Part shown: positions 44,490 through 55,491 of the stretch, piece after piece
Layout: the number at the start of each line of letters is the position of its first letter
How positions within the stretch are numbered: the first letter of the stretch is position 1
Assembly: GCF_002214525.1 (NCBI RefSeq)
Contig: NZ_CP015104.1
Location: 806,001 to 870,000, forward strand
Origin: Thermococcus sp. P6
GTDB taxonomy: Archaea > Methanobacteriota_B > Thermococci > Thermococcales > Thermococcaceae
DNA: 64,000 nucleotides
Reading direction: 5' to 3'
Translations under genes and position numbers: made by a program
Notes under the pieces: model-generated
What the model saw: the letters and a program-made list of their open reading frames with translations, nothing else
Databases searched by the model: none
Told to the model about the DNA's origin: nothing

Positions 44490-44693
44490 ATGCCTCGCTT
44501 TATAAATGACAAAAACCTGGCAATTCTAACAGTAGTTCTATGGATATTCCCCTTTGCAGTGTATCTCTTCAACACACCAGAGCCGTCAGTTCTCCACATG
44601 AGCAAGCCCTTTGCTTATTCAGTGATATGGTGGATAATAGCCCTATCCCTCTTTACAGTATGGGCTTACTACGATCTCAGGGGTGGTGAATAA
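44490..44693 (+). CDS. Small membrane protein of DUF3311 type, symporter partner
   Basis: 67 residues with two hydrophobic helices separated by a short loop (LAILTVVLWIFPFAVYLF and SVIWWIIALSLFTVWAYYDL). Small proteins of this type commonly precede sodium:solute symporter genes. Its TAA stop overlaps the first base of the symporter ATG. AGGTG precedes the ATG at 44490. Codons are more A/T-rich than in flanking genes. Confidence 0.75.
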   Translation: MPRFINDKNLAILTVVLWIFPFAVYLFNTPEPSVLHMSKPFAYSVIWWIIALSLFTVWAYYDLRGGE

Positions 44694-46237
44694 TGGAAGC
44701 TTGGCAGATCGCCACCACAATCATCTTCTTCTACAGCTTGCTCGTGATAGGCATCGGAGTCTGGGCAGGGAAAATCATGAAGAAGTCTATGGAAGACTTT
44801 TACATTCTTGGCAGGAGAGGGAGTACAATCGTGACATTTCTCGCAACTGCCGCAACCTACCACAGCGCCTTTGCCTTCCTGACGAGCGTGGCGGTTTTTT
44901 CAACGGCAGGAGTTACTTTTTGGATAGCCGCATCTGCCTGGACAGTGCTAGCGGGAATATTCATGTACCTGGTCGGACCAAGGATATGGAAGATAGGAAA
45001 AGCAAGGGGGCACATGACACCCGCCGATATGCTGAGCGACTTTTATGATAGCAAAGCCCTCGGAGTGATAACCGCAACCGTCATGGCGCTTTTCATAATT
45101 GCATACATAGTAGTCCAGGCCGTTGGCCTTGGAATAATCCTCGATGTTGCAAGCCAGGGACATGTTCCCTACCAATGGGCATCACTGGTCCTTATACTCG
45201 TTGCAGCTACCTACCTGTTCCTCGGAGGACTCAGGGCAGCCTACTGGACAGACGTCCTTCAGGGGGTTTGGATGTACCTCGGAATCTTTGTGGCGGCCTT
45301 TGTGATAGTTGGCAAAATTGTACCCGGGGGCTTCACGGCCCTAATGGATTCCGTTAGGGCGGTCAATCCAAAACTTTTAACAATGAACTGGACATCCCAA
45401 AAGATGCTCGGTGCAATCCTCATATACGGCCCCGGTCTCATGCTCCTCCAGCAACTCTGGATTAAGTATTACATAGCCAAAGACGAAAAAATCCTAAAGA
45501 CCTCCGCCGTTGGTACTGCGATTTACCTGAGCACCTACTACATTGCAGCAGCGTTGATAGGACTTTCGGCCGCTGTTGCCAACGTTAAAGGGATTCCGGG
45601 AGTCCTCAGTCCGGGATTCATATCAGCACTTAAAGCCCAATACGGAAGTGCAGACGCCGTTGCGGCGGTGATGATATACAAGCTCCTCAATCCAGTTCTG
45701 GCCGGATTCCTGCTTGCCGGGGCCGCAGCGGCAGCAATGTCAACCCTCGATTCGTTCCTGGGTTCAACTTCCATGATTCTGGTCAGAGATATCTATCAAA
45801 AGCACATCAAACCGGGAGCGAGCGAAGGCCATTACGTACTGGTCAGCAGGGCATTCATGATAATCTGGGCCCTTATAGGATGGTACTTTGCCCTTTTAAA
45901 GCCCGGCTTAATATTCAACATAGCCTCGATAGCCTGTGCCGGTGGACTGCAATTCCTGCCGCTTCTCCTTCCAGCAATCGTCCCAACCACAAAGAGGTAC
46001 ATAAACAGAAACGGTGCCATATGGGGATTGATAGTTGGAAGCTTCCTTGCAGCGTTCCTCTCACCGCAGATTGGAGGAAAGCTCGGCCTTCCAGTGCTTG
46101 AACACCCGGCGGTAGCGGGACTGGTGGCGGTGATAGTTAACACCATAGTCGCACTCCTGATTTCAGCAATCACAAAGGCAAGCGAAAGGGAGCTCAAGGT
46201 TATGGAAGAATACAAGGAAGTTCTTACGAAAGCTTAA
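44693..46237 (+). CDS. Sodium:solute symporter family transporter, candidate 5-oxoproline importer
   Basis: 514 residues with about 13 helices, SSS family ([74 protein letters not shown]). It co-transports a small solute with Na+. It sits directly upstream of pxpABC, which hydrolyse 5-oxoproline to glutamate, so pyroglutamate is the simplest guess for its substrate. The sequence is richer in A/T codons than its neighbours, a sign of acquisition from elsewhere. GGTGGTGA precedes the ATG. Confidence 0.85.
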
Positions 46238-46238
46238 A

Positions 46239-46272
46239 TTTTTATTTTACCAATTACTAATTTTTACAGAGG
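46239..46272 (+). terminator. T-rich terminator after the symporter
   Basis: TTTTTATTTTACC follows the stop codon, with another T-run at 46260-46265. Termination here would separate the cassette from pxpA; readthrough would give one transcript. Confidence 0.4.
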
Positions 46273-46279
46273 GTGATCT

Positions 46280-46298
46280 GATGAAGGTCGATCTGAAT
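46280..46298 (+). repeat. 19-bp direct repeat, copy 2 (start of pxpA)
   Basis: Identical to 44341-44359. It holds the ATG and first six codons of the intact pxpA gene. The flanking bases on both sides differ between the two copies, so the repeat ends are sharp. Confidence 0.85.
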
Positions 46299-47048
46299 TC
46301 CGATCTGGGTGAAAGCTTCGGAAGGTACAGGCTCGGCATGGATGAAGAAGTCATGAGGTACGTAACCTCGGCGAACGTTGCCTGTGGCTGGCACGCCGGG
46401 GATCCGCTGGTGATGAGGAGAACCGTAAGGCTCGCAAGGGAGATGAAGGTTGAAGTCGGGGCCCATCCCGGCTACCCCGATCTTCTCGGCTTCGGGAGGA
46501 GGTACATGGACCTAACGCGGGAGGAGGCGAGGAACTACGTTCTCTACCAGATAGGCGCCCTTTACGCCTTCGCAAAAGCCGAAGGTTTGACCCTGCAGCA
46601 CGTTAAACCCCATGGGGCCCTTTACAACGCCCTTGCAAAGGATGAAGAGCTCGCGAGGGGCGTTCTTGAAGGAATAGCGGACTTCGAGAGGAAACTCATT
46701 TTCGTCGGGCTCTCAAACTCGAAACCCCTCGAGATAGCGGAGGAAATGGGATTGAGTGTTGCCCACGAGGTTTTTGCCGACAGGGCCTACAACCCCGACG
46801 GAACCCTCGTCTCAAGGCGCCTGAAGGGGGCGGTTATTCATGACAAAGAGGCCATAGCGGAAAGGGTGATCTCAATGGTTAAAGACGGGGGCGTTAAAGC
46901 CATCAACGGCGAGTGGGTGGATCTAAAAGCGGACACCGTCTGCGTCCACGGTGACAATCCAAAGGCCCTCGAGATAACTGCCCACGTAAGAAAACGCCTT
47001 GAGGAGGAAGGGGTGAAGGTTCTGCCCATGAAGGACTTCATACGGTGA
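46281..47048 (+). CDS. pxpA: 5-oxoprolinase subunit A (LamB/YcsF family)
   Basis: 255 residues. With PxpB and PxpC it forms the ATP-dependent 5-oxoprolinase that opens pyroglutamate to glutamate. Family motifs: [69 protein letters not shown] and [16 protein letters not shown] lies four bases before the ATG. Four bases separate it from pxpB. Confidence 0.95.
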
Positions 47049-47052
47049 TCCC

Positions 47053-47748
47053 ATGTTCCCCCTTTTCAAGCCGGCCGGGGATTCCGCGCTCGCGGTTATC
47101 TTCGGCGATGAAATAGACGAGGGGATAAACGAAAAGGTGCATGCCGTGGCCAGGGCAATGGAAAAGGCATCCCCGGAATGGCTGATCGAGGTAGTTCCCA
47201 CCTACACGAGCCTCTACATCTACTACGATCCTTTGAGAATCTCCTATTCGGAAGTTGCCGGGGCTGTGGGACCTTTCCTGGGGACAAAGCCTGAGAAGGG
47301 TAAGAGAAGGGTTGTGAAGATTCCAGTAGCTTACGGCGGCGACTTCGGGCCGGATATAGGGTTCGTTGCGGAATACAACGGTCTAAGCGTCGATGAAGTT
47401 ATTGAGATCCACTCGAAGCCCCTCTACAGGGTTTACATGCTCGGCTTCCTTCCGGGTTTTGCATACCTCGGGGGGATGGACGAGAGGATAGCCACACCAA
47501 GGCTGGAGAAACCGCGCTTAAAGGTTCCAGCAGGAAGCGTGGGGATAGCCGGGAAACAGACGGGATGGTACGCAATAGAGAGCCCCGGAGGGTGGAGGCT
47601 GATAGGAAGAACACCCCTGAAAACCTTCGACCCCCTGAAAACCCCGCCGAGCATCGTAACCCCCGGGGATTACGTTAAGTTCGTTCCCATAGGCGAAGAG
47701 GAATTCCGGGAGATCTATGAAGGGAACCGGGGGAAGGAGGATGATTGA
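47053..47748 (+). CDS. pxpB: 5-oxoprolinase subunit B (KipI-like)
   Basis: 231 residues, allophanate-hydrolase-subunit-1/KipI family. GDSALAVIFGDEID at the N terminus, VYMLGFLPGFAYLGGMD, RLKVPAGSVGIAGKQTGWYAIESPGGWRLIGRTP. Its end overlaps the start of pxpC by 8 bases, so the two products are probably made together. Confidence 0.94.
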   Translation: MFPLFKPAGDSALAVIFGDEIDEGINEKVHAVARAMEKASPEWLIEVVPTYTSLYIYYDPLRISYSEVAGAVGPFLGTKPEKGKRRVVKIPVAYGGDFGPDIGFVAEYNGLSVDEVIEIHSKPLYRVYMLGFLPGFAYLGGMDERIATPRLEKPRLKVPAGSVGIAGKQTGWYAIESPGGWRLIGRTPLKTFDPLKTPPSIVTPGDYVKFVPIGEEEFREIYEGNRGKEDD

Positions 47749-48736
47749 ACTCCTGAGCGTTCCATCCCTAACGACCGTTCAGGATTCCGGAAGGAGGGGC
47801 TATCAGAGGTTCGGGGTCCCCGTGGGAGGGGTGATGGACGAGGTAAGCGCGAGGCTGGCGAATTACCTGGTCGGAAACGACGATAAAGCCCCCCTGCTGG
47901 AGTTTGCTTTAAAGGGACCCACGCTGAGGTTCAACGCCTCGGCCGTCTTTGCTGTTGGTGGGGATGCTGAGGTAAGGCTGAACGGAGTTGAAATAAGCCC
48001 CTGGAGGAGTTACTGGGCAAAGAGGGGGGACGTTCTGGAGATAGGCATCTTAAAAAGCGGTTTTTATGGATACGTAGCTTTCGCCGGGGGAATAAAATGC
48101 GAGCCGATCCTCGGCAGCTGCTCCACCTATCTAAGGGCAAATTTTGGAAAGGCCCTGAAGGCCGGGGAGGGGCTGAAACTCGGGTATGCTATTCTCACGG
48201 GCAAAGCGGGAAAAGAACTCCCGGAGGAGTTCATACCTGTCTATGCGGAGGAGAGTGAGATAAGGGTCATTCCGGGCCCTCAGGAGGACCACTTTACCAA
48301 GAAGGGTATTGAAACCTTCCTGAATTCGACCTACGAGGTAACCCCCGAATCCGACAGGATGGGGTACCGTCTTGAGGGGCCCGAGATAGAGCACTCGGAA
48401 AAGGGAGCGGAGGTAATCACCGATGCCGTCCCTCCGGGAGCGGTTCAGGTCCCGAAGAACGGTAAACCAATAATAATGCTCGCCGACGGGCAGACGACCG
48501 GGGGCTATCCAAAGATCGGGGTTGTTGCGAGGGTTGATATACCAAAGGTTGCCCAGACGAGACCCGGCGGGAGGCTCAGGTTTAAAGCTGTAAGCGTGGA
48601 GGAAGCTCAAGAGAGATTGAGGAAGCGGGAAAAGATCATGGAGGCCATAAAGGGGTTTATCCGAGGTGAAATGAAGGCCTACAGGCTGAAGGTTGGGGAG
48701 CGGGTGGTGGCCTTTACAAAGGTGGAGAAGAGGTAA
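47741..48736 (+). CDS. pxpC: 5-oxoprolinase subunit C (KipA-like)
   Basis: 331 residues, allophanate-hydrolase-subunit-2/KipA family. SVPSLTTVQDSGRRGYQRFGVPVGGVMDE, YVAFAGGI, VIPGPQEDHF, SDRMGYRLEGP and IIMLADGQTTGGYPKIG are characteristic. The ATG at 47741 follows GGAAGGAGG. It completes the pxpABC operon. Confidence 0.94.
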   Translation: MIELLSVPSLTTVQDSGRRGYQRFGVPVGGVMDEVSARLANYLVGNDDKAPLLEFALKGPTLRFNASAVFAVGGDAEVRLNGVEISPWRSYWAKRGDVLEIGILKSGFYGYVAFAGGIKCEPILGSCSTYLRANFGKALKAGEGLKLGYAILTGKAGKELPEEFIPVYAEESEIRVIPGPQEDHFTKKGIETFLNSTYEVTPESDRMGYRLEGPEIEHSEKGAEVITDAVPPGAVQVPKNGKPIIMLADGQTTGGYPKIGVVARVDIPKVAQTRPGGRLRFKAVSVEEAQERLRKREKIMEAIKGFIRGEMKAYRLKVGERVVAFTKVEKR

Positions 48737-48738
48737 GC

Positions 48739-49245
48739 TCACCACGGCACGCTCTTCCATCCCATCCTGTAGGCGAGGTAGTTCGCCCCCCAGTGGACGA
48801 AGGGGGTCACCACGAGCAGGAAGAGGATCCCACCGCTGGGGAGGGTCTTAACCGGATAGGCAAAGACCATGGCGCTTATTACAAAGCCCAGCTGGTCGAG
48901 GCCCAAGGCGGGGGCACCCCGGGGCAGGTTCACACGCCTCTTGATAAAGCTCCCGATGAGGTCGCCCACAAGGGCACCGAGGGAGAGCAGGAAGGCGAGA
49001 AGGAGAGCTACCTTCAGGGTGCCGTAATAATCGGGAGTGATAACGTACTGAACCGCTCCGGTAAGGGTGCCCAGCGCGATCCCTCCGAAGAACCCCCTCC
49101 ACGTCTTTCCATCACCAAGGAGTCTCCTGCCGTCCCGCCAGTTTCTGCCGCCGTCCATGGGTTCTCCACCGCCGACGAGAACCGGGGATGCGTTGGCAAC
49201 GTAAGCCGGAAGGATGTACCATAGAGCCCACAGCACCGATGACAC
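48739..49245 (-). CDS. carS: CDP-archaeol synthase
   Basis: 168 residues with four or five helices. CarS transfers CMP from CTP to 2,3-bis-geranylgeranyl-glycerol phosphate, a committed step of archaeal phospholipid synthesis. YVANASPVLVGGGEPMDGGR, LLGDGKTWRGFFGG, LGALVGDLIGSFIKRRV and LDQLGFV fit the family. The gene runs opposite to pxpC and just misses overlapping it. Confidence 0.94.
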   Translation of the reverse strand: MSSVLWALWYILPAYVANASPVLVGGGEPMDGGRNWRDGRRLLGDGKTWRGFFGGIALGTLTGAVQYVITPDYYGTLKVALLLAFLLSLGALVGDLIGSFIKRRVNLPRGAPALGLDQLGFVISAMVFAYPVKTLPSGGILFLLVVTPFVHWGANYLAYRMGWKSVPW

Positions 49246-49278: not shown

Positions 49279-49806
49279 TTAAAGTCTGCCGCCTTCCTCC
49301 AGTCCGAAGCACTTCAAAAGCTTCTCGAGGACCTCCTCATCATCGTGCTCCATAAGGAACCTGACTATCCTCTCGATGAGCGCGTTCCTCCTCATGACCA
49401 GCTCAATGTCCCCCCTCATCGCCCGGGCTTCCTCGCTCCCGTCCCCCTCGAGTTCCCTGAGGGCCCGCTCGAAGTTCCTCCTCATCTGTTTGATGTCTTC
49501 AATTATGCTGGAGTAATAGGCCGCCTGCCGCCAGTCCCTCAGACCCTTTATTACCCTGTAATAGGCCTTCTTATCGCCGGGCTTCTTGATCCTCACGACC
49601 AGACCTATGCGCTCCATGGATTTGAGGGCGGTGCTCACGTGGGACAGGGAGTAACCCGTGGCTTCAGCGATCTCGCCCAGACTCATCGGCTCTCTGGCAA
49701 GGAAAAGAACGCCGTAGATGTAACCGTAGAGTTCTTTGAAGCCAAACCTCCTCGCCGTCCCTGCGAAATGCTCCATGAGTATTCTTCGGGCCTCTTCAAC
49801 CCCCAT
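49279..49806 (-). CDS. GbsR/MarR-like transcriptional regulator
   Basis: 175 residues. Winged helix-turn-helix at the N terminus (FGFKELYGYIYGVLFLAREPMSLGEIAEATGYSLSHVSTALKSMERIGLVVRIKKPGDKKAYYRVI), then a long helical dimerisation part. The resemblance is to GbsR-type regulators. It is transcribed divergently from the MMPL/CARDB/LEA14 genes across a 117-base gap that carries a large inverted repeat, so those genes are its probable targets. The ATG at 49806 has GGGTG upstream. Confidence 0.82.
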   Translation of the reverse strand: MGVEEARRILMEHFAGTARRFGFKELYGYIYGVLFLAREPMSLGEIAEATGYSLSHVSTALKSMERIGLVVRIKKPGDKKAYYRVIKGLRDWRQAAYYSSIIEDIKQMRRNFERALRELEGDGSEEARAMRGDIELVMRRNALIERIVRFLMEHDDEEVLEKLLKCFGLEEGGRL

Positions 49807-49869
49807 CCCCGACACCCTGCTTTGTGCGATAACCCGGATAGGGTAACCTACGAAAGGTTTTTAAATTTT

Positions 49870-49903
49870 GTATATTTAAAACTTTCGGAAAATTCCGAAA
49901 GTT
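49870..49903. promoter_or_regulatory. Operator and promoter of the MMPL exporter genes
   Basis: A TATA element TATATTTAAAA (49871-49881) is followed by a perfect inverted repeat with 11-base arms, AACTTTCGGAA (49880-49890) and TTCCGAAAGTT (49893-49903), separated by AA. It spans the expected transcription start of the MMPL gene, so binding should repress. A partial half-site, GAAAGG, lies nearer the regulator gene at about 49850. Confidence 0.75.
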
Positions 49904-49923
49904 CAGAAAATGGGGGAGGGACC

Positions 49924-52179
49924 ATGGACCCGCTGAAAGCGACGGCGAGGATCATCGTGAGGTACAGGGTTGCCTTCGTGCTGGTGGCGATCTTCCTTCT
50001 GGTACTCTCGGGTTACGGGATCCAGAAGCTCCGCTTTGAGAGCGACATTAACAGCATGCTTCCCGAAAACCACCCGGCGATAAACGACTACAAAACCTTC
50101 CAGAACGAGTTCCAGGGTGGCGACAGCGTGCTGATAATGGTGAAGGTGGATTCCATAAGGCCGGGCGGGGTCTACGACATCCGCGATCCCGAGGTCATAA
50201 AGTCGATCTACGAACTCGAGCAGAGGCTCGAAAAGAGGGAGTACGTAACCGGCACCGTGAGCATCGCGGACCTCTACGTGAACGTCCTTGGGAGACTTCC
50301 GGACAGCGAAGAGGAGGTGAAGTTCGTTCTCGAGATGATCCCGCCGGAGGAGAGGTACTCACTGGTGAGCCGGGATTACACGAGCACGATAATGGTAGTA
50401 ACGCTGAGCAGGGAGAAGAACAGTGAAACCCTAAAAAAGGTCTACGAGGGAATAGAAGAGGATATAGAAAGCGTCAGGTTCCCTCAGAACGTCGAGGTTG
50501 TCCAGACCGGAAGCATTGGCATAACGTACCGCATACTCCAGCTACTCCAGAGTGACCTCAACAGAACCATCGCGATAGCCTTCATCCTCATCGTGGCGCT
50601 CCTCGTGTACTTCTACCGCTCCCCCGTAAAGGCCGCCATCCCCCTCATCCCGCTCGTTTTCGGAGTGGTTATGACGCTCGGCTTCATGGGGCTGATGGGG
50701 ATACCCCTCGACATGGCAACGACAACCGTGGGGGCCATGATGATAGGGATGGGCATAGACTACGGTATCCACGTGACCAACCGCTATTACGAGGAGAGAA
50801 GGCGCGGAAGAAGCATAGAGGAGGCCTCCGAGGAGGCGGTGGCTGAGACCGGAAAGGCCCTGCTCGGGGCGGCCCTCACGACCATAGCCGGTTTTGCCGC
50901 AATTTACCTCTCGAGCCTCCCGATACTTCACCACCTCGCAACCGCCCTGATTCTGGGCCTGAGCCTCTCCGCCGTCAACGCCGTGGTCATAACCCCGGCC
51001 ATCATAATCCTCGAGGAAGACGTGACCAAACGCCTAAAGGGCCACTACAGCGTTCCGGAGGTTCGCTCGCAGTCGGGGTTCGTGGGTAAGGCCTTCCACA
51101 ACCTCGGTGAGGCCATAAGGAAGAGACCGACGGGTTTCCTTGGGGTCGTTCTCATCCTGACCCTCATCTTCGCCTACGGGACAACTCTGGTGACGACGGA
51201 GGTGAGACTCGAAAAGCTCGCCCCCAAGGGGGTGCCCGAGATAGAGGCCATAGGGGAAATAACGAACACCTTCGGCGGACAGGACGAGCTTTACATAATG
51301 GTCAGGGGGGAGGACGTCAGGGACCCTGGGGTGATAAGGGGGATATACCGCTTCGAAAACGAGTTGAAGGCCGATTCTTACTACAACGGCATTACAGAAA
51401 CCGAGAGCATCGCCGATGAGGTTTATGACAGGTACGGCTACCTACCCGCCGATAGGGAGAAGATAAACGAAGCCCTCGAGGGGAGCAACCTCATCTCAAG
51501 GGATTACTCAACCACTTACATCACCCTCAAGGGGAGCTTCGGTGGGTCTCCGGACGAATTCAGGAGGATCATGAGGTACTTTGAGGAGGAAACGGAGAGG
51601 GCCGAAAAGACCGAGTTTCCGCCGGGAGTTGAGCTCTCCCTTACGGGGGACACCTACCTTAACTACGTCCTCGACGGGCTCACAAGCAACGAGATAAACA
51701 GAATCTCAACTTACGGAACGGTCTTTGTGGTGCTTATAGTCCTTCTTCTATTCAGAAGGCCGAAGGTCTCGGTGGCGATGATAACCCCAATGTTCCTCGG
51801 TGCCCTCTGGACGATCGGATTTATGGGCCTCGCGGGGATTCCCTTTACTCAGACGCTGGCGGGGGTTATATCGATGATAGTGGGTCTGGGAGTTGACTAC
51901 GGTATGCACCTGACCCACCGCTTCCTCGAAGAGATGAGGGAGGGCAACCCGAGGGCGATGGTTACCTCCGTGGAGACCGTGGGGCCCGGCATACTGGCGG
52001 GAGCTTTGACGACGGCCGGAGGTTTTCTTGCCCTGCTCTCGGGCGAACTGCCCCCGATACACGACTTCGGAAAGACGCTGGCCTTTGGAATATTCGCGTC
52101 AATGTTTGCCGCGTACCTCGTAACCCCAGCGTTACTGCAGATTTTTTACGGAAGGAAAAATGGAGGTGAGGATGAATGA
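49924..52179 (+). CDS. RND/MMPL-family exporter
   Basis: 751 residues made of two similar halves of about 375 residues. Each has one leading helix, a large extracytoplasmic domain (about 40-220 and 410-570) and five helices. The conserved acidic motifs GMGIDYGIHVTNRYYEE and GLGVDYGMHLTHRFLEE sit in the fourth helix of each half and carry the proton-relay Asp. This is the archaeal MMPL/HpnN-like type (COG1033), which moves lipids or hydrophobic compounds with the ion gradient. The substrate is unknown. ATG 49924 follows GGGGGAGGGACC. Confidence 0.88.
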   Translation: MDPLKATARIIVRYRVAFVLVAIFLLVLSGYGIQKLRFESDINSMLPENHPAINDYKTFQNEFQGGDSVLIMVKVDSIRPGGVYDIRDPEVIKSIYELEQRLEKREYVTGTVSIADLYVNVLGRLPDSEEEVKFVLEMIPPEERYSLVSRDYTSTIMVVTLSREKNSETLKKVYEGIEEDIESVRFPQNVEVVQTGSIGITYRILQLLQSDLNRTIAIAFILIVALLVYFYRSPVKAAIPLIPLVFGVVMTLGFMGLMGIPLDMATTTVGAMMIGMGIDYGIHVTNRYYEERRRGRSIEEASEEAVAETGKALLGAALTTIAGFAAIYLSSLPILHHLATALILGLSLSAVNAVVITPAIIILEEDVTKRLKGHYSVPEVRSQSGFVGKAFHNLGEAIRKRPTGFLGVVLILTLIFAYGTTLVTTEVRLEKLAPKGVPEIEAIGEITNTFGGQDELYIMVRGEDVRDPGVIRGIYRFENELKADSYYNGITETESIADEVYDRYGYLPADREKINEALEGSNLISRDYSTTYITLKGSFGGSPDEFRRIMRYFEEETERAEKTEFPPGVELSLTGDTYLNYVLDGLTSNEINRISTYGTVFVVLIVLLLFRRPKVSVAMITPMFLGALWTIGFMGLAGIPFTQTLAGVISMIVGLGVDYGMHLTHRFLEEMREGNPRAMVTSVETVGPGILAGALTTAGGFLALLSGELPPIHDFGKTLAFGIFASMFAAYLVTPALLQIFYGRKNGGEDE

Positions 52180-54545
52180 AGAAGATCGGACTCATCGTGG
52201 CCATGATGGTAACCTTTGCGTTGTTCCCGGGAGGCGTGAGTGCCTCAACGGGAAGTCCGCTCTTTGAAGGCTACCTGACAAAGGGCGAGGCCGTTCTCGT
52301 GGGCCCGCTCATAGTTACCCTCGCGGACACCCAAAAGGACTACGGTAACGGCGAGTACTACGCCTTCCTCATCGTAATGAAGGATGGAAGGATCCTTAAC
52401 GCGGAGTACAAAACGATACTCGTCCCGGATCCGAACAAAATAAACCGCCTTCTCATGAACCCGGATTTCCTCATAGCCATGGCCGAGACGCAGGGTTACG
52501 ACGCCAGTCAGTGCGAGCAGTACGTTAACAACAGCGCCGCCTTTACCTCCTGCCTCGTGGGAACCGCCGCCGGATTCTACCAGTGGCTGAACTCCGCATC
52601 ACCTTTGGAGCTGGCGGATGCGATTATGGAAACCATCGAGGAGCACCCGGAACTGGGGATAAGTAAGGAAGACGTGCTGATGGAGGTAACGTATCCGGAT
52701 GTAACTCCCGTAAGGGAGGGAGAAACCGTCGAGGTAAACGTGGACAACCAGACGGTTTACGTTACGGCAAACGAGATCTATCCCAACGGCGCCAGAGTGA
52801 GCATAAGCGGACCCCCCGAGTGGAGGGCCGCGACCCTGCCCGGGATGATAACCTCAAGCGTCGAGATGCCGGAAGTCGTTCACCCCGGAGATACGGTCAC
52901 CGTTAAAGTCCACCTCAGAAACGTGGGTGCACGTGAGGTGCGGTACGTAAACGTCTTCCTGAGCCCCACGCCGGTGAGCTTCAACGAGAGCTCCTCGATA
53001 GCGAGTGCGCTTTCGATGGCCCTGAGCGGAAGCGGGATGGCCCAGAGTGTCTTCTATCCCGAGGGGAGTTCCATGAAGTACATCGAGTACCTCGAGGGGA
53101 AGGAGAACGCCACCCTGACCTTCAGGATAAAGATAAACCCCAACGCTGACGTCGGAACGTACCCGCTCTACGTCGGCGTCGTTTACTCAACCGGCCTCGG
53201 GTCCAGCATGAGGATGATGCAGGGCTACAACTTCGTGGCGCTCAACGTGGAAAAGCTCAGGGAAGGCTTCGTGGAGATAAAGAAGGTCGAGACCTCCCCG
53301 GAGGAGATAAGCCCGGGGGATTCCTTCACGGTAAGGTTCACCCTCGAGAACACCGGAGCCGAGAAGGTCAGAGCGCTCAGTCTGAAGATAAACTCCTATC
53401 AGGTCCCGGTGCAGGGGGAGATAAAGAAGGTCGATACCTCCGCTCTGGGCCAGCTTCCCATTCAGGGGAGCCAGCAGCTGAGCCAGAACCTTCAGGATGC
53501 CCTGAACCAGATAATGACCCAGCTCGCCAAACAGAACGTTGATGCCTTCCTTCCGATCGGGGAGGACAACGTGAAGTACGTGGCGGAGCTCGAGCCCGGG
53601 GAAGAAGTTACCCTCGAGTTCAGGGTCAGGGCCAACGACAGGCTCGAGAACGGCATCTACCCCCTCAGGATAGAGCTAAGCTACCTCACGGAGCCGAACG
53701 GAAAGGAGATAACTGACGAGAGGCTCGTTGGAATAGACGTTACGGGGAGGGCAAGGCTGATAATCTCAAAGGTTTCCACCTCACCGGGCAGGATAATCCC
53801 GGGAACGGACAACGTGGAGATTGATTTCCAGCTGAACAACGTCGGGACCGGAACTGCCAGGGAAGTGGTGGTCAGACCCCTGCCGAAGTGGCCCTTCTCA
53901 CTCAGCGACAGCGGCCAGCAGGTCATAGGAGTGGGAAGTCTGGGAAAGGGGGACTCGGCGAGTGCCTCCTTCAAGGTCAACGTGGCCGGGAACGCCAGTT
54001 CCGGAACCTACAGCCTGCCCCTGCTCGTGAGCTACACAAACGACCTCGGGATGGAGAAGAACGTTACCCTTGAAATCCCCGTGGTGATTGGCTCGAAGCC
54101 GAATGTGGAGATCGTCGCCGTCCGCTTCGATCCCGAGCCCCTTCAGGGGGAGAGCACGCACGTGTACATAAAGCTGAAGAACACCGGCGGCGAGAAGGCC
54201 ACGAGCGTGGTTATCGAGGGTGTCGTAAAGGCCGACCAGCCCTTCACTCTGGACAAGAGAACCGACTACGTGGGCAATCTGGAGCCCGGTCAGACCGGTG
54301 AGGGGGTGCTGATCCTCAGCATCGAGGACGATGCGATACCCAAGGATTACAACCTCCAGCTGCGCATAAGGGCGGTTGGGGATCCGGAGGAAGGAGACGA
54401 CAACGTTTACGTCTTCGAAAAAACGATAAGCGTGAGCGTAAAGGAGAACACGAAAACACAAACCAACCTCAGGAACCTCGCCATCGTGGTCGGGGTGCTG
54501 GCGGTGGTTGCGGTGATTTACACCTACAGGAGGACAAGGAGGTGA
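52176..54545 (+). CDS. Secreted CARDB/COG1361-type surface protein with C-terminal anchor
   Basis: 789 residues. A signal peptide (MKKIGLIVAMMVTFALFPGG then VSASTG) is followed by a unique region to about 220. Then come at least four beta-sandwich repeats of CARDB/COG1361 type (EVVHPGDTVTVKVHLRNVGA, EEISPGDSFTVRFTLENTGA, NVEIDFQLNNVGTGTA, ESTHVYIKLKNTGG). The C terminus is a single helix with a basic tail (LAIVVGVLAVVAVIYTYRRTRR). It starts inside the end of the exporter gene (four-base overlap), so it is a likely partner at the outer face of the membrane. Confidence 0.85.
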   Translation: MKKIGLIVAMMVTFALFPGGVSASTGSPLFEGYLTKGEAVLVGPLIVTLADTQKDYGNGEYYAFLIVMKDGRILNAEYKTILVPDPNKINRLLMNPDFLIAMAETQGYDASQCEQYVNNSAAFTSCLVGTAAGFYQWLNSASPLELADAIMETIEEHPELGISKEDVLMEVTYPDVTPVREGETVEVNVDNQTVYVTANEIYPNGARVSISGPPEWRAATLPGMITSSVEMPEVVHPGDTVTVKVHLRNVGAREVRYVNVFLSPTPVSFNESSSIASALSMALSGSGMAQSVFYPEGSSMKYIEYLEGKENATLTFRIKINPNADVGTYPLYVGVVYSTGLGSSMRMMQGYNFVALNVEKLREGFVEIKKVETSPEEISPGDSFTVRFTLENTGAEKVRALSLKINSYQVPVQGEIKKVDTSALGQLPIQGSQQLSQNLQDALNQIMTQLAKQNVDAFLPIGEDNVKYVAELEPGEEVTLEFRVRANDRLENGIYPLRIELSYLTEPNGKEITDERLVGIDVTGRARLIISKVSTSPGRIIPGTDNVEIDFQLNNVGTGTAREVVVRPLPKWPFSLSDSGQQVIGVGSLGKGDSASASFKVNVAGNASSGTYSLPLLVSYTNDLGMEKNVTLEIPVVIGSKPNVEIVAVRFDPEPLQGESTHVYIKLKNTGGEKATSVVIEGVVKADQPFTLDKRTDYVGNLEPGQTGEGVLILSIEDDAIPKDYNLQLRIRAVGDPEEGDDNVYVFEKTISVSVKENTKTQTNLRNLAIVVGVLAVVAVIYTYRRTRR

Positions 54546-54591
54546 AGGAAAAAGTTAAAGCCAGCCCCGGGGAAGTAGAACGGTGGGAAGG

Positions 54592-55491
54592 ATGAAGTGG
54601 GGCCACCTCATACTCGGTCTGGTGCTGATACTCCTAATCTGGACGGCCTACGTGGCGTACGCCCTCGCAACCGCCAGTCCCGAGATTCGCGCGAGCTGGG
54701 GCTACGTGGACGAAAAGACCACGGAGATATGGGTGGAGGGAAAGCTGAGCAAACCCCTCCTGATCCCCTTAAAGGTGGAGAACCTGAGCCTGAGCTTCAT
54801 GGGGATTGAGGTCGCGAGGGGTGCAAGGTTCGACTACGGGGCCACGAAACGCGGGGTGGGCATGGTCCTCGTGATGGACAACGAAAAGCTCGTCCGCTCC
54901 CTCGTGGCCTACCTGAAAAACGATCAGACGGGGGAGGCCAGAATCCACCTGAAGGGAAGCCTCCTCTGGGCAGTGCCCCTGAACCTCAACGTGAAGCAAA
55001 CCGTCCACGAGGACATCCTCTCCAAGCTCAACTTCACGGTGGAGAGCAGGGAAGTGGCGGGAGGTCTGGTCAAAAGCCCAGCACTCGTGGGGACGACCTT
55101 CGAGTGGGCGGGAGAGCGGGACGGAAAGGCCATTCTGATGGCCCACCTTAAACTCCACAACCCCAACGGCTTCCCCGTTCCTGTGGGGAACGCGAGCTTC
55201 GAGGTTTACGCCAACGGCGTGAAGGTCATGGAAGGAAAAACCCTGAAGACGGTGGTGATCCCGGCGAAGGGCTACGCCACCCTGAACGTGGAGGTGTACA
55301 TTGACGAGAACGCCCTTCCGGGAGTATGGGCCACCCACGTGAAGAACGGCGAGGTCAGCATGGTTAAGGGCGACCTCTACTTGGACGCGACCCTCCTCGG
55401 GGTTAACTACAGGATCAAACTGGTGAGCTACGAAAGGAAGGTGGAGACTAACATCCTCGGGACGATCAACGAGATGCTTGAGTCCGGATGA
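54592..55491 (+). CDS. Membrane-anchored protein with LEA14/WHy-like domains
   Basis: 299 residues. One N-terminal helix (HLILGLVLILLIWTAYVAYAL), then two beta-sandwich regions: SKPLLIPLKVENLSLSFMGIEVARGARFDY and ILMAHLKLHNPNGFPVPVGNASFEVYANGVKV. The second resembles the LEA14/WHy (water stress/hypersensitive) fold, which in prokaryotes is tied to the cell surface and membranes. GGTGGG precedes the ATG at 54592. It follows the CARDB protein gene by 46 bases and probably belongs to the same unit. Confidence 0.75.
   Translation: MKWGHLILGLVLILLIWTAYVAYALATASPEIRASWGYVDEKTTEIWVEGKLSKPLLIPLKVENLSLSFMGIEVARGARFDYGATKRGVGMVLVMDNEKLVRSLVAYLKNDQTGEARIHLKGSLLWAVPLNLNVKQTVHEDILSKLNFTVESREVAGGLVKSPALVGTTFEWAGERDGKAILMAHLKLHNPNGFPVPVGNASFEVYANGVKVMEGKTLKTVVIPAKGYATLNVEVYIDENALPGVWATHVKNGEVSMVKGDLYLDATLLGVNYRIKLVSYERKVETNILGTINEMLESG

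Follow-up and report, generated by a model that had tools for sequence, protein, structure and literature searches.

We found that a MarR-type winged-helix regulator, a divergently encoded exporter of the HAE3/MMPL family and a CARDB/NEW3-domain partner protein form a three-gene core unit in a 64,000-nucleotide stretch of the Thermococcus sp. P6 genome (contig NZ_CP015104.1, forward strand, positions 806,001 to 870,000; hereafter the window, numbered from its first letter), and that across the Thermococcales this unit is a removable cassette. The pump by itself belongs to a known family and is nothing new; what goes beyond the family definition is the fixed CARDB partner with the dedicated regulator and operator around it. 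We give a probability of roughly 50% to the reading that the cassette, with two structural genes and one repressor, encodes an inducible exporter that is driven by protons, acts on hydrophobic or amphiphilic compounds and works with an anchored partner of its own. No published description of an archaeal set of regulator, pump and CARDB protein was found in the literature searched, from which subscription papers were mostly excluded, and to our knowledge the movement of hydrophobic molecules from the tetraether membrane to or through the archaeal S-layer has been little studied.

Conservation of the cassette across the Thermococcales

The first-pass annotation of the window, made from its letters and open reading frames alone, had described a two-half MMPL/RND pump, a 789-residue secreted CARDB-like protein with a C-terminal helix, a LEA14/WHy-like gene, a divergent regulator and, beside the set, carS; each of these was recovered in place and with the same identity by profile searches (scores are given with the individual genes below). 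To assess gene order, 94 genomes of the order were searched with each of four proteins and the positions of the matches were tabulated, the pump being called present at E below 1e-280 (G and L numbers denote genomes and loci of this comparison set). The pump occurred in 54/94 genomes (48/74 when only good-quality genomes are counted) and was not found by protein search in the other 40. Wherever it occurred, the next gene on its strand was the CARDB gene, no more than 80 bp away by match coordinates (54/54). Equally strong CARDB matches lacking a pump were confined to G052, G083 and G085 (73, 77 and 61% complete), where they stood at or apparently near contig ends.

The regulator gene was divergent from the pump and adjoined it in 47 of the 54 pump genomes. 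It lay 2.7–5.0 kb away in four others (L036–L039), with radical SAM-type or other genes filling the gap, on a different contig in two, and was not found in one, incomplete genome. Presence of the pump was associated with presence of the CARDB protein (Fisher test, p ~5e-23) and of the regulator (p ~2e-17) and showed no link to the LEA14-like protein (p = 0.16); these p values take related genomes as independent and overstate the case, while the gene-order moves are unaffected by this. Because all six genera hold the cassette, the simplest history is that the order inherited it from its ancestor and that many Thermococcus have lost it. One such loss has left a trace: in the pump-less genome G027 a disrupted 3' fragment of the regulator gene still sits between carS and the LEA14-like gene (L044:4937-5180), which indicates that the cassette was once present there.

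The exporter and its CARDB partner

The pump gene (49924–52179, + strand; 751 amino acids) starts with an ATG preceded by a ribosome-binding site, the start in the open reading frame list being too early, and is the only HAE3/MMPL pump gene of this genome. Its product matched the HAE3 model TIGR00921 over the whole model (residues 14–742 against positions 1–733 of 733; 721.2 bits vs. a cut-off of 351.9, E = 1.2e-216) and contained two MMPL stretches (Pfam PF03176, E = 3e-60), and it is an RND transporter of this family. Twelve membrane helices and two extracytoplasmic domains were predicted, and in an AlphaFold2 model (pLDDT 86.5, pTM 0.80) each half appears as one helix, an extracytoplasmic domain and five further helices. 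In Foldseek comparisons the model aligned across its full length with mycobacterial MmpL4, MmpL5 and MmpL3 (TM 0.73–0.80), which points to the same whole-chain fold although identity in the structural rows was 14–20%. The MmpL4 entry 9b43 matched with Z 43.9, rmsd 3.6 and 689 aligned residues (TM 0.79/0.80); AcrB-type chains reached similar Z with a larger rmsd. Some MmpL4/5 entries also contain a coiled-coil domain or the partner AcpM, a possible difference from the 751-residue archaeal pump.

Two Asp-Tyr pairs are present, D279-Y280, which aligns with the DY of MmpL3 in TM4, and D658-Y659, which falls in the corresponding motif of the second half (TM10). The pump thus resembles the HAE3 family (TIGR00921/PF03176) in its full-length match well over the cut-off, its two homologous halves and the dyads in both, whereas the family definition includes neither a dedicated CARDB partner nor the Thermococcales regulator and operator. 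By sequence, the closest solved relatives were MmpL3, MmpL5, MmpL4 and HpnN, with NPC1-type transporters also among them, and most of these proteins handle hydrophobic molecules. As MmpL3 and HpnN export lipids and the NPC1-type proteins transport sterols, these relatives favor the main alternative to conditional efflux, namely delivery of an endogenous archaeal lipid or polyprenol-type molecule by the pump to the envelope, with insertion or storage there by the CARDB protein. This corresponds to the idea of the first-pass annotation less the LEA14-like protein and carS, and we consider it rather unlikely. The structure entries of MmpL4/5 are named as siderophore exporters, so the fold alone does not fix the cargo. 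The available text of PMC6463170 assigns MmpL3, MmpL7 and MmpL11 to the HAE3 'archaeal family', a further point for lipid delivery, and describes Asp-Tyr dyads as the proton path.

The CARDB gene (52176–54545, + strand; 789 amino acids) overlaps the end of the pump gene by 4 nt. Its product matched the Pfam models NEW3 (NPCBM_assoc; E = 5.7e-17, 62.1 bits vs. a cut-off of 24.4) and CARDB (E = 4.5e-12, 46.5 bits vs. 22.7), and in the modeled layout (pLDDT 80.7) a signal-like helix at the N terminus leads into an alpha/beta domain, after which come several Ig-like NEW3/CARDB domains and, at residues 760–788, a C-terminal membrane helix. The alpha/beta domain covers about residues 30–211 (window 52263–52808) and is absent from the Nanoarchaeia and Altiarchaeales CARDB rows. 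Fold searches returned generic Ig-like proteins spanning residues 223–757, and among the matches listed none covers the N-terminal domain. No solved relative was found by sequence search, and the PACE-CTERM putative S-layer protein model NF033506 scored 52.5 bits, below its cut-off of 110. MmpS4 and MmpS5 are the extracytoplasmic partners of MmpL4 and MmpL5, and the archaeal pair would resemble these in combining a pump with an extracytoplasmic partner, though the partner is here a 789-residue Ig-repeat protein. CARDB/Ig-domain surface proteins also occur in the VARTIG islands of the same order; those islands are hypervariable, whereas the CARDB protein described here is about as conserved as its pump, and the available text of PMC8416519 names no RND pump in them.

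The relative of this protein in T. barophilus has 916 residues and a calculated mass of 101.5 kDa, and we take it to be, most probably, TERMP_01807. In the portion of PMC10667668 available, TERMP_01807 has a mass of 101.5 kDa and was detected in the supernatant alone; with reference to Vannier et al. 2015, its level is given there as higher at 0.1 MPa than at 40 MPa, an expression record that we count in favor of the conditional exporter. The same paper describes gene deletion in T. barophilus. For T. piezophilus, two S-layer protein genes, unnamed in the available text, are reported as higher at 0.1 MPa (PMC8595942). Occurrence in the supernatant, along with the large size, Ig-like build and surface-directed nature of the protein, would suit an explanation in which the CARDB protein is itself the point, being a surface or S-layer component that needs the pump for its secretion, release or assembly. 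We regard this as improbable, as the protein has its own signal-like N-terminal helix and C-terminal anchor and should need no special exporter, and its release into the medium may be shedding. Moreover, we know of no folded-protein export by HAE3/MMPL pumps.

To place the pump-partner pair beyond the order, one genome per species was scanned with the pump alignment, which gave 79 loci, 9 of them from Thermococcales and 20 from other archaea according to their titles. A CARDB gene adjoined the pump at 9/9 Thermococcales loci and at 4/20 of the other archaeal loci (L087, L094, L120 and L126, including Nanoarchaeia, Altiarchaeales and haloarchaea). It also lies beside the pump in two relatives from the same class (L073 and L074). 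There two genes, each encoding about 360 amino acids, together make up the pump (L073:4871-7034, L074:5377-7542), and at L073 a PadR-type regulator was confirmed in place of the MarR type. Among 16 haloarchaeal pump loci in four genomes, CARDB adjoined the pump in five, of which two are L120/L126 again (as L184/L187) and part of the profile, and three are independent (L188, L192 and L196). Two other haloarchaeal pump neighbors, of 647 and 669 amino acids (L189:1356-3299, L195:190-2199), have hydrophobic ends and no Pfam match and are perhaps a second partner type. At L108, the only bacterial locus whose neighbors were scanned, the genes after the pump encode a LolA_like protein (PF17131, E = 2.6e-56) and a DUF1302 protein, and other bacterial pump loci have genes of similar size in the same place. 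The L108 set is like the archaeal one in having the gene of a presumed extracytoplasmic partner directly after an HAE3-type pump, but that partner is LolA-like where the archaeal one is CARDB/NEW3.

Operator and regulator

The intergene between regulator and pump contains a near-perfect palindrome, CTTTCGGAAANTTCCGAAAG, a feature absent from the first-pass annotation. We consider it the putative 20-bp operator of the cassette (CTTTCGGAAAATTCCGAAAG; 49882–49901, unstranded), 22 bp ahead of the pump ATG, and it is the only such site in the window genome at up to three mismatches. A search of the 94 genomes at up to two mismatches returned 69 sites spread over 62 genomes. Of these, 54 lie 9–26 bp ahead of the pump, one per pump genome (54/54), 12 lie ahead of a regulator unit located apart from the pump and 3 lie elsewhere (G017, G033 and G057), such that 66/69 are found at the pump or the regulator unit; matches to a reversed-pattern control were far rarer.

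Two TATA-like boxes accompany the operator. One, presumably the pump promoter (TTTTTAAA; 49858–49865, + strand), stands ~25 bp ahead of it, and this spacing was 24–26 bp in 38/38 intergenic rows (31 of them distinct, with some genomes present twice, as in L024/L042, and the window included as L001). The other, a candidate promoter for the divergent regulator gene (TTTTAAATATAC on the − strand; 49870–49881), abuts the operator. To judge from the sequence, the operator thereby lies near the expected start of pump transcription. Over the 31 distinct rows, conservation was 99% in the 18 non-central operator columns vs. 78% in the 31 bp upstream, a stretch that itself holds the two promoter boxes. 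At L036–L039 the pump has retained the operator, whereas the regulator-promoter box next to it has changed, which suggests that the operator is kept for the sake of the pump. From this position we infer that the regulator is a repressor acting at the palindrome.

The regulator gene (49279–49815, − strand) encodes 178 amino acids as called; since its homologues align only from residue 3 or 4 onward, the start is likely an ATG near 49806. Its product passed the cut-off of Pfam MarR (PF01047; 33.3 bits vs. 24.6, E = 4.4e-8) and likewise those of IclR and TrmB helix-turn-helix models, and MJ223 (1ku9, E = 2.1e-13) is a solved relative. A choline regulator of the CudC/GbsR type was considered and rejected (NF047500, 33.1 bits vs. 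a cut-off of 218), and for that reason the protein is classed only as a MarR-type winged helix. Local MarR-type repressors of efflux pumps are a known class, with which the locus shares a divergent gene, a palindromic operator shared by the promoters and presumed autoregulation. It differs from them in its archaeal-type promoter and, in some genomes, in an additional gene for a stand-alone ligand-binding protein of the Lrp/AsnC type. This protein (PF01037, ~75 amino acids) precedes the regulator in several genera (L157:10524-10751, L079:5684-5911, L034:7127-7480), has seemingly been lost from most of the genus of the window, and could be an effector sensor for the switch.

B12-type radical SAM genes were observed between regulator and pump in some genomes (L036–L039), and the same radical SAM gene of ~540 amino acids lies upstream of the regulator in pump-less genomes (L031–L035); these genes matched B12-type radical SAM models only under the cut-off, and rSAM1 occurs without the regulator in at least five genomes (G027, G016, G072, G041 and G042). 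Identity with the GMGT synthase Gms was ruled out by these matches and by the available text of PMC11186832, in which Gms is described as a SPASM protein that carries a helical domain at its N terminus and was found via a different presence pattern. A role of the radical SAM genes as regulator targets was not supported either, given that at the loci read the operator comes after the stop codon of the radical SAM gene and ahead of the AsnC-domain/regulator unit, and that rSAM1 can occur without the regulator.

Proposed mechanism and resident neighbors

In the conditional exporter that we propose, a dimer of the MarR-type regulator would bind the palindrome and block transcription of both the pump operon and its own gene, until a hydrophobic or amphiphilic effector binds the regulator and releases it from the operator. 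The pump would use the proton gradient, via the Asp-Tyr dyads in TM4 and TM10, to extract a membrane-soluble compound from the lipid phase and drive it to the outside. The CARDB protein, held outside on its C-terminal anchor, would accept this cargo or guide it between membrane and S-layer, and may thus be the counterpart of the MmpS or LolA-like proteins that accompany MMPL pumps in bacteria. Patchy loss and a local regulator of its own make relief from harmful hydrophobic compounds, or from surplus membrane amphiphiles under stress, the likeliest role of the cassette, and not a constitutive supply of essential lipid; we rank conditional efflux over constitutive lipid supply on the strength of the local regulator, of there being one operator only, and of the frequent loss of the cassette.

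The genes that flank the core are resident neighbors of the cassette, not members of it. These are carS, encoding CDP-archaeol synthase (48739–49245, − strand; CarS-like in the Pfam scan, E = 1.9e-60), and the LEA14/WHy-like gene (54583–55491, + strand; 302 amino acids; Pfam LEA_2, PF03168, E = 2.3e-13, 50.9 bits vs. a cut-off of 25.4). The first-pass annotation had included the LEA14-like protein in the system, had read carS as a hint at a lipid role and had looked to conservation of the gene order; the order is indeed conserved for pump, CARDB gene and divergent regulator, but not for LEA14. LEA14 lies up to 4 kb downstream of the pump on the same strand in 42/54 pump genomes, a frequency that lends some support to a four- or five-gene envelope system in which the LEA14-like protein (and carS) would also function. 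Yet it was found in 89/94 genomes, including 36/40 pump-less ones, and in genus g3 it is far from the pump in eight of nine genomes, the search having failed to find it in G010. In the three pump-less genomes read for this, G027, G025 and G069 (L044, L045 and L050), carS adjoins LEA14. The spread of LEA14 in pump-less genomes, its distance from the pump in g3 and its adjacency to carS without the cassette rule it out as a cassette member and leave the larger system highly improbable. The carS gene has a TATA-like box of its own, in or beside the regulator-gene tail where the cassette is present and kept also in cassette-less G027, and this weakens the case for carS as a co-regulated lipid gene.

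Lipid delivery by the pump and CARDB protein alone gains from the LolA-like partner beside the bacterial family pump, which points to lipid handling, and from the position of the set between carS and LEA14 in many genomes. However, the linkage to carS is positional, with the g3 cassettes L040 and L046 having neither carS nor LEA14 beside them and carS its own box; the pump was not found in over two fifths of the genomes searched (40/94); and a local MarR-type regulator would be unusual for a constitutive lipid route. Farther out in the window, a DUF3201 gene follows the LEA_2 gene, and to the left of carS, at 44693–48736, a sodium:solute-symporter-like gene is followed by three genes that, judged by eye, look like pxpA, pxpB and pxpC (a 5-oxoprolinase set).

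Several points weigh against conditional efflux through a dedicated pump-partner pair. Five pump-less genomes (L031–L035; G018, G021, G024, G028 and G051), of which T. kodakarensis is presumably one, keep the regulator and operator beside the radical SAM gene and contain no second operator at up to two mismatches, and the regulator may therefore have an additional role. A recognizable CARDB neighbor was missing at 16/20 of the other archaeal loci (e.g., L089–L093, L095, L098 and L103), indicating that a CARDB partner is not required by the HAE3 family as a whole. The equation of the T. barophilus protein with TERMP_01807, most probable as it is, draws on mass, position and chromosome length and not on an accession, and the neighbor of TERMP_01807 is called an MFS/sugar transporter in the available text of PMC10667668. 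Finally, pump-CARDB contact, substrate, inducer, binding and transport are all features that we infer from sequence.

The analysis defines a minimal set of regulator, operator, pump and anchored partner that is conserved across six genera, and identifies the neighbors to exclude from it. More tentatively, the set may represent a two-part MMPL exporter class of the Archaea's own, with an Ig-repeat (CARDB/NEW3) protein standing in for MmpS or a LolA-type partner and ferrying hydrophobic cargo across the gap between membrane and S-layer. An accumulation of membrane amphiphiles, such as might arise under pressure stress, would then be the condition in which the Thermococcales turn it on, by means of a repressor of its own and one operator. 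With natural plus and minus backgrounds now named among the genomes, archaeal MMPL export and its need for a partner become directly testable.

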